DNA from: Chelativorans multitrophicus
GTDB lineage: Bacteria; Pseudomonadota; Alphaproteobacteria; Rhizobiales; Rhizobiaceae
Direction of reading: 5' to 3'
DNA: 64,000 bases
Assembly (NCBI RefSeq): GCF_011317445.1
Contig: NZ_JAAAPL010000001.1
Location: 62,001-126,000, forward strand
Part shown: one piece after another, positions 47,555-52,544 of the stretch
Layout of the letters: each line of letters begins with the position of its first letter
Numbering within the stretch: the first letter of the stretch is position 1
Translations under genes and position numbers: made by a program
Notes under the pieces: generated by a model
Databases searched by the model: none
Told to the model about the DNA's origin: nothing
What the model saw: only the letters and a program-made list of their open reading frames with translations

Positions 47555-47668
47555 GCGCAATACCGGATAGATTTACTCAACATTTGAATGCCGGGGGCAA
47601 AGGCGAGCCAGCAATCCCGCTCGGGACGAGCCAGCGAAGGCCTAATCGAGAGATTAAGGGGATTCGCA

Positions 47669-49726
47669 ATGAAGGGGCTTTTGGCTCGCCATCGGATGGC
47701 AATGCTTGTCTGTGCGACCGTTGTCGTGAGCATTTCGGCGGCGGCAGCCGCACAAGAGGCAGGCGGTCAAACCGCTGAAGCAGCAGCAACAGGCCAGCCA
47801 GGCACGACGCAGTTAGACAGAATTACCGTTGTCAGCCGCACCGGCGAGACGCCGATCGAGACCATGGCTTCGGTGAGCCATGTGGGCGAGGAGCGGCTGG
47901 AGCGGCGGATGGCCACGACGCCAAGCGACCTTCTCTACGGAGTTCCCGGCATCAACATCTATGCCGACGGACAGCCCTCGGTGACGAACATCAACATCCG
48001 CGGCCTGCAGAATGCCGGCCGTGTCGCGGTCATTGTCGATGGCGCCCGCCAGAACTTTCACAAGAACGGCCATGATGTCTCGCGGATGTTCTGGATCGAC
48101 CCGGAACTCGTAAAGCAGGTCGACGTGATCCGCGGGCCGAGCGCCAACACCTTCGGCTCGGGCGCTATCGGCGGCGTCGTCTATTTCGAGACAAAGACGG
48201 CTGAGGATTTTCTGCGCGAGGGAGAGACCCATGCGCTTTCAACGACGGCGCGCTACGAATCGAACGGCTCCGGCTGGACCACGAGCGCCACGGGCGCCTA
48301 CCGGCTCACCGATGACTTCTCCGTCCTGGGCAGTGTCGTCTGGCGCGACTATGGCGATTATGACGACGGCGCCGGAAACACGGTGGAAAATTCCGGCTTC
48401 GAAATCCTGAGCGGGCATGCAAAGGCCACGCTGAAGCCGACGGAACTCAGCGAGTTTACGCTCGGCTGGACGGGCTCGCGGGACGAGTGGTCCACGTCCG
48501 ACGAGGTGGACAACGAGCTCAAGGGCAACACCTTCACCGGCGAATTCAAGATCTCCGGCGAGGAGGAGAAATGGCTTAACCTCAATGTGAAGGGCGCCAT
48601 CAACTCGATGGACCTTACCGAGACAGAGGTGGGCGGCCAGACCGAGTACGAGCTCCAGACATCGAGTTTCGACATCTGGAACACCTCCTATTTCGATACC
48701 GGCGTCATCCGGCACGAACTCACCGTGGGCGGCGACTGGGTCTACGACGATTTCACCTCCAGCACGGGGACGGGCGCGGATTTCTTTAATCCGGCCGGTG
48801 AGCGCACCGTCTGGGGCACCTATATCCAGGACAAGCTGACCTATGATTGGCTGGAGGTGGTCGGCGGTCTGCGCTACGACGCCTATACGCTCGAAGCTTC
48901 CCAGGAAAGCTCCGACGACCGCATCTCGCCGCGCCTCAGCGTGGGCGTGTCGCCCTTCCGCGAGGGCCTGCTTTCAGGATTGCAGATCTATGGCTCCTAT
49001 GCCGAAGGCTATCGTGCGCCGAGCACGTCCGAGGCCTTCATCAGCGGCATGCATCCCTTTCCGCCCTTCCCGTTCCTTCCCAATCCCGATCTGAAGCCGG
49101 AGACTGGCAAGACCTGGGAAGCGGGCGTGAACTATACCGCCGAAGGGCTTTTCCGGCCCGACGACGCATTGCGGCTCAAGGCAGCCTATTTCCACAATGA
49201 CGTGGACAATTTCATCACGACCGAGACCATTTTCATGGGGCCGGGATCGGCCTGCGCCTTCTCCCCCATGGGATTCTGCGTGCAGTACCAAAACATTCTC
49301 AAGGCGGAGATCGATGGCTTCGAGCTCGAAGGCTACTATGACGCCGGCCGGTTCTTCGGGGGCTTAAGCGTTTCCATCATTGACGGCCAGGAAATCCAGC
49401 AGGACGGGACGCGGACCGATCTCGCGACCATTCCGCCGACCACTGTGACCGCCGATCTGGGCATGCGCTTCCTGCAAGAGCGGCTGACGGTCGGGGGCGA
49501 GGTGCAGTTCAACGAGGCCCCGAAGGGATCGAGCTTCGCCGAGGACTACACGCTCGTAAATATCTACGCGAACTACCAGGCCACGGAGAACCTGCGGCTC
49601 GACTTCCGCGTCGACAACCTCTTCGACGAGAAATACGTCGTCCCGCTCGTCGATACGGCCGGTGGCTTCGACTATCAGCCCGGGGTGACGTTGAAAGTCG
49701 GCGCCACCCTGCGGCTCGGGGGCTGA
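47669..49726 (+). CDS. TonB-dependent haem/haemoglobin receptor
   Basis: Outer-membrane haem receptor of 685 residues (BhuA/HmuR type). Signal peptide 1-27, TonB box near ITVVS (about 50), plug domain to about 200 (INIRGLQNAGRVAVIVDGARQ, DVIRGPSANTFGSGAIGGVVYF), then the beta barrel ending LKVGATLRLGG. The receptor motifs YRAP and NPDL flank a stretch with the expected His (SGMHPFPP). ATG 47669 has AAGGGG upstream. It opens a six- to eight-gene operon that includes its own energising complex. Confidence 0.93.
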   Translation: MKGLLARHRMAMLVCATVVVSISAAAAAQEAGGQTAEAAATGQPGTTQLDRITVVSRTGETPIETMASVSHVGEERLERRMATTPSDLLYGVPGINIYADGQPSVTNINIRGLQNAGRVAVIVDGARQNFHKNGHDVSRMFWIDPELVKQVDVIRGPSANTFGSGAIGGVVYFETKTAEDFLREGETHALSTTARYESNGSGWTTSATGAYRLTDDFSVLGSVVWRDYGDYDDGAGNTVENSGFEILSGHAKATLKPTELSEFTLGWTGSRDEWSTSDEVDNELKGNTFTGEFKISGEEEKWLNLNVKGAINSMDLTETEVGGQTEYELQTSSFDIWNTSYFDTGVIRHELTVGGDWVYDDFTSSTGTGADFFNPAGERTVWGTYIQDKLTYDWLEVVGGLRYDAYTLEASQESSDDRISPRLSVGVSPFREGLLSGLQIYGSYAEGYRAPSTSEAFISGMHPFPPFPFLPNPDLKPETGKTWEAGVNYTAEGLFRPDDALRLKAAYFHNDVDNFITTETIFMGPGSACAFSPMGFCVQYQNILKAEIDGFELEGYYDAGRFFGGLSVSIIDGQEIQQDGTRTDLATIPPTTVTADLGMRFLQERLTVGGEVQFNEAPKGSSFAEDYTLVNIYANYQATENLRLDFRVDNLFDEKYVVPLVDTAGGFDYQPGVTLKVGATLRLGG

Positions 49727-49728
49727 CC

Positions 49729-50154
49729 ATGCGCGGGCGGCTTGCATCCTGGCTGATCGTGACACTCATGGCGGACGCCGGACATGTTCTGGCCCAGGAG
49801 GGCGGCAACGCGCCCGTCCTCTCGCTTGAACTCAACGGAGCCGAGCCAAGCGAGCGCGGGTGCAGGCTGACATTCGTCGCGGCGAACCGGCTCGGGCAAG
49901 ATATAGCCCGGGCCGCCTACGAGGTCGCACTGTTCGGCAAGGACGGGCTGGTCAAGCGCCTCACTGTCCTCGACTTCAAGGAATTGCCCGACAGCGAAAC
50001 GAAGGTCCGCCAGTTCGTCATGCCGGACATGGATTGCGCGGATCTCGGACGTGTTCTCGTCAACGATGCCACCGCCTGCGAAGGGCCGGAAGCCGCCGCC
50101 TGCATGAGGCGGCTGGAAACCGCCACGCGCGGCGCGGTGGCCTTCGGAAAATAG
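49729..50154 (+). CDS. Exported protein of unknown function in the haem operon
   Basis: I do not recognise this 141-residue protein. It has a signal peptide (residues 1-22, ending VLA) and a beta-rich body with alternating pattern (CRLTFVAANRLGQDIARAAYEVALFG, RLTVLDFKELPDSETKVRQFVMPDMDC) that looks like a small immunoglobulin-like domain. Four Cys could form two disulfides. The start is 2 bases after the receptor stop, so the two are coupled. A periplasmic helper between receptor and ExbB-ExbD-TonB is the natural inference. Confidence 0.8.
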   Translation: MRGRLASWLIVTLMADAGHVLAQEGGNAPVLSLELNGAEPSERGCRLTFVAANRLGQDIARAAYEVALFGKDGLVKRLTVLDFKELPDSETKVRQFVMPDMDCADLGRVLVNDATACEGPEAAACMRRLETATRGAVAFGK

Positions 50155-50189: not shown

Positions 50190-50888
50190 ATGCCCGCAGG
50201 ACTAATCGATTCCATTGCCTCTCTCCTGGAGCTCGGCGGCATCGTCGTGGCCTTGATCCTGGTTCTCTCAATTTTCGCGGTCGCGATCATTCTCCTCAAA
50301 TTCGCTCAGTTCTGGCGCGAGCGGGTGGGTCGCCACCGCGGGGCGGAACGGGCACTGCATGCCTGGTTTCACGCCGGCCACGGCGAAGCGCGGCGCATGG
50401 TGGAAGGGGACCGCTCGCCGGCGGGCGAGGCGCTTGCTGCTTCCATGCGGCTTGCAGCGATGCGCAATGTTCCCAAGGACGCGATCGAGGACGAGGTAGC
50501 CCGCATCGCGCTCTCGCGTTTGCACGATTTGCAGCGCGGCTTCCGCGCGCTCGACGCCATCGCGCAGATCTCGCCGCTGCTCGGTCTCTTCGGCACCGTG
50601 CTCGGCATGATCGAGGCATTTCGCCAGCTCCAGAATGCCGGCAATGCGGTGGACCCCTCCATGCTCGCCGGCGGCATCTGGGTGGCGCTTTTGACGACGG
50701 CCGCGGGCCTTGCGGTCGCCATGCCCGTCTCGCTCCTTCTCACCTGGTTCGAGACCCGCGTCGAGAACGAACGCGTGGCGATCGAGACGATGACGAGCGC
50801 CGTCCTCTCACACCGAGGTGCACACAGGCAGCCGGAAGGCGAAACCCATGCAATGGCGGCAGGCACGGGAATGGCCCATGCGCATTGA
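50190..50888 (+). CDS. exbB: ExbB-like proton channel subunit
   Basis: A 232-residue inner-membrane protein with three helices: about 10-35, 125-150 (AQISPLLGLFGTVLGMIEAFRQ) and 160-185 (GGIWVALLTTAAGLAVAMPVSLLL). It should form the pentamer that energises TonB. In E. coli ExbB an essential Glu (E176) stands where this protein has Val165 (GIWVALL against GI-E-AL). The two Thr of the third helix are kept. AAGGA lies before the ATG. The end overlaps the first exbD. Confidence 0.9.
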   Translation: MPAGLIDSIASLLELGGIVVALILVLSIFAVAIILLKFAQFWRERVGRHRGAERALHAWFHAGHGEARRMVEGDRSPAGEALAASMRLAAMRNVPKDAIEDEVARIALSRLHDLQRGFRALDAIAQISPLLGLFGTVLGMIEAFRQLQNAGNAVDPSMLAGGIWVALLTTAAGLAVAMPVSLLLTWFETRVENERVAIETMTSAVLSHRGAHRQPEGETHAMAAGTGMAHAH

Positions 50889-51261
50889 CCTTCCCGTTCC
50901 CCGGCGGAGGCCGCTGTCGATGACGTCGCTCATCGACATAATTTTCCTGTTGTTCCTTTTCTTCATGCTTTCCTCCACATTCCTGCGCTTCGCCGAGGTG
51001 GAGGTGACGGGCGGTGCCGCCTCCAGCGCCGCCAGAGGGGAGGCGCCCGATATTCTGATCCGTCTCGACAGCCAAAGCTGGCAGGTGAACGGCGTCTCCA
51101 CCGATCCCGAGCAGGGAATGACGGAACTGAAGCGGCTGCAAGAAGTGGGGGCCGAGAAGGCGGTGCTTCTCGTTCGCGAAGAACTTTCCTCGCAGGATCT
51201 CGTCGGCGCGCTCGAAAGGATCCGCCGCGAAACGTCACTCTCCGTCACCGTGGCGAGGTGA
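50848..51261 (+). CDS. exbD: ExbD-like protein, first copy (Asp present)
   Basis: A 137-residue single-helix protein with a periplasmic C domain. The membrane helix SLIDIIFLLFLFFMLSS (27-43) has the proton-carrying Asp at residue 30, matching E. coli D25. The start at 50848 (GGAAGG upstream) overlaps exbB by 41 bases. ATG 50878 is an alternative. It is the partner of ExbB and the second ExbD. Confidence 0.9.
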   Translation: MQWRQAREWPMRIDLPVPRRRPLSMTSLIDIIFLLFLFFMLSSTFLRFAEVEVTGGAASSAARGEAPDILIRLDSQSWQVNGVSTDPEQGMTELKRLQEVGAEKAVLLVREELSSQDLVGALERIRRETSLSVTVAR

Positions 51262-51267
51262 TCCCAC

Positions 51268-51669
51268 ATGCTGCGCCTTTCCCGCCCCCTGCCCCGACGC
51301 CAGCGCGAAAGCACGATCGCTCTTATCAATGTGGTCTTTCTGATGCTCGTGTTCTTTCTTGTGGCTGGCTCGCTCGCGCCACCGATCGACAAGGAGATCG
51401 AGCTGATCTCGACAGCGATGACCGAGCCCAGCGCCCCGCCAGACGCGCTTTTTGTCACGGGTGAAGGAGAACTTCGCGCCCGCGGCGAAACAACGACCGT
51501 TGCAGCCTTCATCGAAGATCTGACGGCAGGCGGCACGGAGGCAGATGAAATCGAGGTGAAGCTTGCGGCCGATCGCAATCTGCCGGCCGTGCGGCTGATC
51601 GAGATCGTGGGAGAGCTGCGCCAGGCGGGAGCCGCACGCATCAGCATCGTGACGGAGATCGCCGAATGA
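51268..51669 (+). CDS. ExbD-like protein, second copy (Asp replaced by Asn)
   Basis: A 133-residue protein aligned without gaps to the first copy over the membrane helix: ALINVVFLMLVFFL (18-31) against SLIDIIFLLFLFFM. The invariant Asp is Asn21 here (codon AAT, 51328-51330). The C-terminal fold (EIEVKLAADRNLPAVRLIEIVGELRQAGAARISIVTE) is intact, so this is a maintained gene, not a pseudogene. Together with copy 1 it may form a heterodimer with a single protonatable site. Confidence 0.9.
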   Translation: MLRLSRPLPRRQRESTIALINVVFLMLVFFLVAGSLAPPIDKEIELISTAMTEPSAPPDALFVTGEGELRARGETTTVAAFIEDLTAGGTEADEIEVKLAADRNLPAVRLIEIVGELRQAGAARISIVTEIAE

Positions 51670-52544
51670 AATGGAAGCGGTCCCACTGGATGCTGGCAGT
51701 CGGTGCCTCCTGCGTCATCCATGCGGGCGCGGCCGCGCTGATCGAGCCTTCCAAGGAAGAGGTGCTGGTCGAGAGTGGCGGAAGCGGCGTGATCGTGCTC
51801 GGCAACAATGTCTTCGCGGACATGTCCGCCATGGGCGAGGAATCGGAAATCGTGGAGCCGGAGACGGAGATCCCGGCGGCGATTGTGCCGCCGGAGCCGA
51901 CTGTCACCGCGCCGGAGCCGGCCGAACCTTCGCCCGCTGATATCGCCGTACCGGCGGAGACAACAGAGCCCTTGGGGCCTGAGGAGGAGGTGGCGATGCT
52001 GCCCATCCCGCGGCCGACACCCCGCCCGCATTACACTCCACCGAAGGTCGAGCCGCGCCAAGGCCAGCCGCCCAGGCAGGCCCCCTCCCCGCGCCAACAA
52101 ACCGAGGAAAGAAAGGAAAGTCCGAAACGGCAGGCCACGTCACGTGGTTCGCGCGGTCAGAACACGCAAAATGCAAGGCGCGGTTCATCGGAAGGCAGCC
52201 GGACGGCAAGCGGAACGGAAAGCCAGGGGCCGGGGCGTTCACGGCAAACCGGCAATGCCGCAACTTCCAACTACCCAGGAAAGATCGTCGCGAAATTGCG
52301 CCGTTCGCTGCGCTATCCGCGCGAAGCCCGGCGGCAGCGCCTCGGTGGGGAGGTGCGCGTCGCATTTACGGTAACGCAGGACGGACGGGTAAGCGGCATT
52401 CGCATCGTGCGCAGCTCCGGCTCGCCTGTTCTGGACCAAGCAGCCCTCGAGACGGTCCAGCGAGCGGCCCCTTTTCCCAAAATACCGGCCGAAGCGGGCC
52501 GACCATCGTGGCCCTTCACGGTCCCCCTCGAGTTCAAACGTTGA
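51666..52544 (+). CDS. tonB: TonB-like energy transducer
   Basis: A 292-residue protein: short N-terminal anchor (SHWMLAVGASCVIHAGAAAL, 6-25, with a central His as in TonB), an acidic then Pro/Arg/Gln-rich spanning region (60-210), and the C-terminal TonB domain (YPREARRQRLGGEVRVAFTVTQDGRVSGIRIVRSSGSPVLDQAALETVQRA split over 215-275). Its start overlaps the second exbD by ATGA. The spanning region is more basic and Gln/Ser-rich than the usual Pro-Glu/Pro-Lys repeats. It should be dedicated to the haem receptor. Confidence 0.92.
   Translation: MKWKRSHWMLAVGASCVIHAGAAALIEPSKEEVLVESGGSGVIVLGNNVFADMSAMGEESEIVEPETEIPAAIVPPEPTVTAPEPAEPSPADIAVPAETTEPLGPEEEVAMLPIPRPTPRPHYTPPKVEPRQGQPPRQAPSPRQQTEERKESPKRQATSRGSRGQNTQNARRGSSEGSRTASGTESQGPGRSRQTGNAATSNYPGKIVAKLRRSLRYPREARRQRLGGEVRVAFTVTQDGRVSGIRIVRSSGSPVLDQAALETVQRAAPFPKIPAEAGRPSWPFTVPLEFKR

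Follow-up and report, generated by a model that had tools for sequence, protein, structure and literature searches.

The best-described relatives of the motor considered here are the ExbB5-ExbD2 complexes of Escherichia coli and Serratia (5SV0, 6TYI, 6YE4, 7AJQ). Two ExbD helices have been described within the ExbB pore, with Asp25 near Thr148 and Thr181 (PMC6778125), and in rotary models the two Asp residues alternate, with a rotation of 36 degrees per proton (PMC9022066; PMC9008036). In MotB, the D22N substitution serves as a mimic of protonation (PMC9389320; PMC9022066). The locus described here lies in a stretch of 64,000 nucleotides from Chelativorans multitrophicus, referred to below as the window, and shares with these complexes the same protein families, equivalents of Thr148 and Thr181, and a TonB partner. 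However, the E. coli and Serratia motor is built with a single ExbD, both copies of which carry Asp, and its ExbB has Glu176, while the window encodes two ExbDs, one with Asp (ExbD1) and one with Asn (ExbD2), and has Val in its ExbB.

All of the genes named with coordinates here are on the forward (+) strand. An HmuR-type haem receptor gene (47588-49726; NCBIfam TIGR01785, 455.7 bits against a cut-off of 316.85) lies upstream of exbB, and the strand opposite to it encodes HemP as well as a periplasmic binding protein. On the downstream side of the receptor follow an unnamed reading frame, exbB, exbD1, exbD2, tonB and an HmuQ-type haem-degrading protein. The gene set is as the sequence-only reading had it: exbB spans 50190-50888 (232 aa; Pfam MotA_ExbB, PF01618, 100.9 bits against a cut-off of 22.9), exbD1 ends at 51261 and exbD2 spans 51268-51669 (133 aa), with both ExbDs matching Pfam ExbD (PF02472) above its cut-off. 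Taken from the ATG at 50878, exbD1 (50878-51261, 127 aa) overlaps exbB by 11 bases and is separated by 6 bases from exbD2, which in turn overlaps by 4 bases the gene for its TonB partner, tonB (51666-52544, 292 aa; Pfam TonB_C, PF03544, and TonB_2). A search with PF01618 found no second ring protein in the window set, as a double-ExbB Ton set would have. Nor does the set score as TolQR, with ExbB at 62 bits against the tolQ cut-off of 221 and ExbD2 at 22.6 bits against the NCBIfam tolR cut-off of 127.3; ExbB scores below the NCBIfam cut-offs for exbB and tolQ alike. Single models predicted for the two ExbDs each combine a single long helix at the N-terminus with an alpha/beta domain, at modest mean pLDDT values of 71.2 and 73.7, and the best structural matches to the ExbD2 model are ExbD periplasmic domains.

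The claim that ExbD2 has Asn21 where other ExbDs have Asp proved correct, as this residue aligns without gaps to the PFIDV-motif Asp of the E. coli and Serratia proteins, which we take, following the numbering in the literature, to be Asp25 of the E. coli protein. ExbD1 does keep the Asp, but the number first given to it, Asp30, assumes a start at ATG 50848; counted from ATG 50878 it is Asp20, and a Met is found at the position of this ATG in 23 of 28 aligned ExbD1 homologues. The membrane Asp is therefore not present in every axle ExbD of this locus, being Asp in ExbD1 and Asn21 in ExbD2. Asn is found in 29 of 30 aligned ExbD2 sequences (the window counted). Among representatives less than 62% identical, a set that leaves out the pattern-scan loci of named genomes, L128, L143 and later fetches, the first ExbD of the pair has Asp in 72 of 72; of the 70 second ExbDs, 68 have Asn and the other 2 have Asp. 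Conservation within ExbD2 is highest in its transmembrane helix, Asn included, and the Asn column, ranked by entropy, shares second place with two further columns out of 124. A strain-specific change, which would have undone the original proposal, is removed by the presence of Asn in 68 of 70 diverged ExbD2 proteins, and sequencing error is likewise ruled out by this conservation. Judged by their sequences, both proteins are ExbD homologues whose genes stand together in a constant order, the leading one retaining Asp and the following one Asn.

The spread of this pair was followed through several searches, in which most loci were found with the ExbD2 sequence or a profile, and those of the named-genome scan with a pattern that demands Asn. 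When the window ExbD2 was searched against 61 genomes (its own and 60 relatives), 47 matched, and the best match of each of 30 of these showed Asp-then-Asn in 29 of the 30 loci, window included; the exception, L030, is Asp/Asp. The named-genome scan gave 80 loci, five with ExbDs identical to loci from other searches and the other 75 all Asp/Asn with Val in ExbB; since the pattern contains Asn, these counts show spread and not frequency. The named hosts of Asp/Asn sets include Nitratireductor, Chelativorans, Mesorhizobium, Hoeflea, Stappia, Pannonibacter, Ruegeria and Roseovarius. In two Stappia loci (L065, L077), an insertion in the ExbD2 periplasmic domain splits the profile match. The first 30 loci listed from a profile search of 289 class-level genomes comprised, minus one duplicate, 27 Asp/Asn sets together with L143, whose first ExbD is cut off by a contig end ahead of its Asp site, and L128, in which ExbD1 and ExbD2 fall within one open frame of 294 aa (L128:1027-1908). 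A natural fusion was rejected for L128 because the join has no extra membrane segment and topology would forbid it; the single frame is probably a frameshift in a draft genome. Further down the same profile list, 40 chosen regions gave 38 distinct loci, whose tandem sets comprised 14 that are Asp/Asn, L178, which is Asp/Asp and shares their ring type, and seven double-ExbB sets that are Asp/Asp, and whose other members carried one Asp-ExbD each (5 double-ExbB, 10 single-ExbB and 1 without a ring gene in reach).

Beyond the class, a search of 398 phylum-level genomes added 22 further distinct loci, 17 of them Asp/Asn and 5 with a single ExbD carrying Asp, and 20 regions outside the class held 2 Asp/Asn sets and 18 sets with one Asp-ExbD. 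Outside the class, the Asp/Asn pair was seen at four loci (L152, L163, L223, L228). The suggestion that the pair is maintained in fixed order thus holds across much of the class and in these four loci. No near match was found among plasmids, and a plasmid origin was rejected; distant protein matches occur in 27 plasmid records, and the 25 listed are annotated as ExbD or "biopolymer transport protein".

A census not selected for Asn was made with PF02472 (E up to 0.001) in 67 class-level genomes, the window's included, of which 66 matched. Tandem pairs were defined by coordinates among the matches listed, so that pairs with a diverged member undetectable by Pfam are missed, and all 20 found in this way were read. 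Twelve are Asp-then-Asn (G000, G061, G069 twice, G078, G082, G088, G093, G135, G140, G711, G712), eight are Asp/Asp (G063, G064, G072, G074, G086, G099, G151, G713), and none of the 20 is Asn/Asn or Asn/Asp. With eight of the 20 being Asp/Asp, tandem arrangement alone does not bring Asn; Asn in ExbD2 instead goes with one ring type. Eleven single-match census loci were also read, ten of which have Asp; in the eleventh (L275:1958-2404), the reading frame is lipoprotein-like; it has a domain resembling that of ExbD but lacks the motor helix. Single-ExbD sets thus carry Asp in 5 of 5 phylum-level, 16 of 16 class-level, 18 of 18 outside-class and 10 of 11 census cases, and no Asn-ExbD without a neighbouring ExbD was seen in the loci read, among which L143 is truncated as described above.

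A tree of 164 ExbDs, built with the Asp/Asn column left out and rooted on the window's TolR, required four changes of the Asp/Asn trait over its 164 rows. All 68 Asn forms fall in one group (SH-aLRT 75), together with both Asp second-ExbDs, which are nested among the Asn forms, and one stray first-ExbD also falls in this Asn-form ExbD2 group. The simplest reading is that Asn may have arisen once and reverted twice to Asp; because support in the ExbD tree is low (15 of 161 inner branches starred), a single origin is the simplest reading rather than proof. The Asp/Asp sets of the Asn group, L030 and L178, have the same ring type as the Asp/Asn sets and indicate that Asn is not strictly required. 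Co-evolution of ExbD1 and ExbD2 was scored by mutual information with average-product correction over 181 pairs (about 141 effective, overlapping and Asn-pattern loci included). The top inter-protein score was 0.37, versus 0.33 within proteins and at most 0.12 in five partner shuffles; shuffling also strips shared ancestry, so these inter-protein scores do not separate contact from co-inheritance.

The ring protein has its own substitution. That ExbB has Val165 at the Glu176 position was borne out by its alignment to the Glu of GIAEAL in three TolQ chains, and the alignment coordinates with E. coli ExbB (query 113-205, chain 125-216) also fit Glu176 opposite Val165. T136 and T170 are invariant in 23 aligned ExbBs and are taken, from the alignment frame, as the equivalents of E. 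coli T148 and T181. The sequence-only reading had treated the loss of Glu176 as part of the same design as the Asn. This did not survive comparison: among 84 tandem-set rings (near-copies included) the site is V in 43, E in 29, L in 4, A, Q and I in 2 each, and G and T in 1 each. Because 29 of 84 rings keep Glu and the site changes 21 times on the ExbB tree, loss of Glu176 reads as a separate, repeated and labile change. Val is found throughout the 30-row group that contains the window, and Glu or Ala in some order relatives (L035, L037, L036). Single-ExbD sets have Glu in 12 rows (the window's TolQ counted twice) and Lys in 5. Outside the class, single sets with Lys at this position (L157, L165-L168, L224, L225, L231, L235) read SKALNTTA or AKALNTTA, and their ExbD has Asp. 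A ring without Glu176 has been judged probably non-functional (PMC8599685). The window's genome yielded no Ton ring other than this Val ring, which argues for Glu176 being dispensable in this ring type but does not prove it.

A steadier mark of the ring is the residue before this site, W164 in the window. Of 163 distinct Asp/Asn rings (Asn-pattern loci included), 161 have Trp here, one has Phe and one Tyr; the signature of this ring type is GGI-aromatic-x-AL. Trp is found in only 3 of 44 other sets with one ring gene (double-ExbB sets not counted). Tandem Asp/Asp one-ring sets have Gly (4), Ala (2) or Trp (2, namely L030 and L178), and single-ExbD one-ring sets have Ala (18), Ser (17) or Trp (1, L276). 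L276 encodes a single ExbB, which has Trp-Glu at the signature site, and a single ExbD, which has Asp, and hence shows the ring signature without an Asn partner; it also has reading frames that are putatively TonB-like, HmuS-like and HmuT-like.

It is probable, in our judgement, that these genes encode a distinct and old Ton motor in which one ExbB ring would enclose ExbD1 (Asp) and ExbD2 (Asn) as an obligate heterodimer, the heterodimer being the part that we infer. The sequence-only reading had proposed such a heterodimer with one proton site, and the proposal is plausible. The compact spacing of the genes in the window, which overlap or nearly touch, is counted in favour of it. ExbD1 and ExbD2 would assemble within the ExbB ring as 5:1:1, with ExbD1 as the sole proton carrier and the Asn of ExbD2 as a permanently neutral, protonated-like arm. 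Since an axle with Asn in both chains would lack a titratable residue, ExbD2 would be useful only beside ExbD1. Under the alternating-site rotary model, such a motor would use about 5 protons per turn in 72-degree steps, versus 10 and 36. A bolder version, which we put forward tentatively, is that an obligate 5:1:1 motor with one titratable carboxylate may be common to the whole branch; its Asn subunit would be locked in a protonated-like state that rules out alternation between two proton sites, and it would run either in strokes of 72 degrees, at about 5 protons per turn, or through a non-alternating cycle of a single arm.

The strongest of the rival explanations is that the motor is an ExbD1 homodimer and that ExbD2 is a conserved non-motor accessory, such as a regulator or a TonB-binding partner, which sits on ExbB or TonB and not in the pore with ExbD1. 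ExbD-TonB heterodimers have been reported in vivo (PMC9389320), the second exbD of Xanthomonas is described as dispensable for iron uptake (PMC3551730), and the two Asp/Asp sets within the Asn group would also be at home with such a role. However, it is the transmembrane helix with its Asn that is most conserved in ExbD2, where a protein outside the pore would have no need of an Asp-like side chain, and co-encoding in fixed order also speaks against an accessory; on balance we regard this explanation as unlikely, if a serious one. Another idea is that homo- and heterodimers both form, with Asn/Asn rings as silent decoys and the ExbD1:ExbD2 ratio tuning the number of motors. The Asp/Asp sets L030 and L178 could then be understood as a loss of tuning, but Asn is near-invariant over deep divergence, which is more than a decoy needs, making this improbable. 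It is very improbable that ExbD2 is a relaxed or decaying duplicate in which Asn is a tolerated loss of function: the lability of Glu176 in the same sets would suit such decay, but a drifting site would take many residues and only Asn (68) or Asp (2) is seen among 70 second ExbDs, and the conservation of Asn led to its rejection.

The putative Asp/Asn motor had been called haem-specific, a description that finds no support in its genome or its relatives. The window's genome has three receptor plug domains and two TonB_C proteins, and no other Ton ExbB/ExbD set was found in it, so the motor probably serves all three receptors, haem included. PF02472 finds three ExbD-type proteins in the genome, namely ExbD1, ExbD2 and one on contig C9, whose pair passes the NCBIfam cut-offs for tolQ (289.4) and tolR (134.1) and not those for exbB/ExbD; the remaining two MotA_ExbB matches read as a flagellar-type MotA and a MotA/OmpA-like pair. 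In G000, contig C8 (219490-225028) has the second TonB_C protein and a receptor plug domain within about 5 kb of each other, and no ExbB/ExbD match. Among the 80 named loci, a single-sequence search of flanks of mostly 4 kb found no haem-type neighbour in 24, and neighbours that were HmuR-like in 45, HmuT in 9, HmuU in 8, HemP in 7 and HmuQ in 14; single sequences miss distant relatives, so these haem-neighbour counts are lower bounds. In nine loci without an HmuR match, none of ten large neighbouring reading frames matched a receptor model, five having no match and the others being a ribonucleotide reductase subunit, two dehydrogenases, a LysR regulator and an anion symporter. Two of the nine, L092 and L103, have HmuT- or HmuU-like matches.

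The unnamed protein encoded directly 5' of exbB (49729-50154, 141 aa) has a signal-peptide-like start and four Cys residues. A homologue is found on the same strand just 5' of exbB in all 80 named loci. The window protein has no Pfam or NCBIfam match, one of 30 aligned family members has a weak match to DUF3213 (E 0.028), and a PDB search returned no relative of the family, which has conserved Cys and is present in 29 of 289 class-level genomes. In other loci of the family, no exbB was detected within 1.5-kb flanks. The protein was considered as a part peculiar to the Asp/Asn motor, a role that was rejected because it also stands 5' of a single canonical exbB-exbD in L248, L250 and L256. It is best described as a putative accessory of the module.

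Several other described systems combine some of these features. Double-ExbB Ton sets, which we take to be the TtpC-like sets, have two ring proteins, unlike the window; some carry tandem ExbDs, and these were Asp/Asp in 7 of 7 distinct sets and in L266. The tonB1-exbB1-exbD1-exbD2 cluster of Sphingobium SYK-6 likewise has a single ExbB and tandem ExbDs beside tonB, but Asp25 is reported in both of its ExbDs, unlike the window pair (PMC8599685). Four tandem sets with a GPVGEAL ring are Asp/Asp, and our guess is that they are of the SYK-6 type. Xanthomonas campestris has tandem exbD1-exbD2 in its tonB cluster, as in the window, with exbD2 being the dispensable gene mentioned above (PMC3551730). 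The haem cluster of Ruegeria TM1040, described as exbB, exbD1, a "duplicate" exbD1a, tonB and a hypothetical protein (PMC5225302), has the same gene content, and from that description it is very likely the same module. Searches of an open-access collection, which takes in few subscription journals and little of bioRxiv, turned up no natural pair described as having Asn where ExbD has its Asp; this is weak evidence that the Asp/Asn pair is new to the literature, the gene content being already in print (PMC5225302).

A natural motor that keeps exactly one membrane carboxylate over deep divergence would test the need for alternation, would predict step size and proton cost, and would have two axle chains that can be labelled separately; the plain annotation of both genes as ExbD hides this functional split. 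The AglR-AglQ-AglS system of Myxococcus likewise has one ring protein and two ExbD/MotB-like proteins. It differs in serving gliding and not Ton, and both AglQ and AglS are said to carry Asp, whereas the second protein of the window has Asn. It has been stated as open whether AglQ and AglS form a heterodimer or homodimers (PMC9389320), and the Asp/Asn pair bears on this same question of whether two ExbD-like proteins in one ring heterodimerise.
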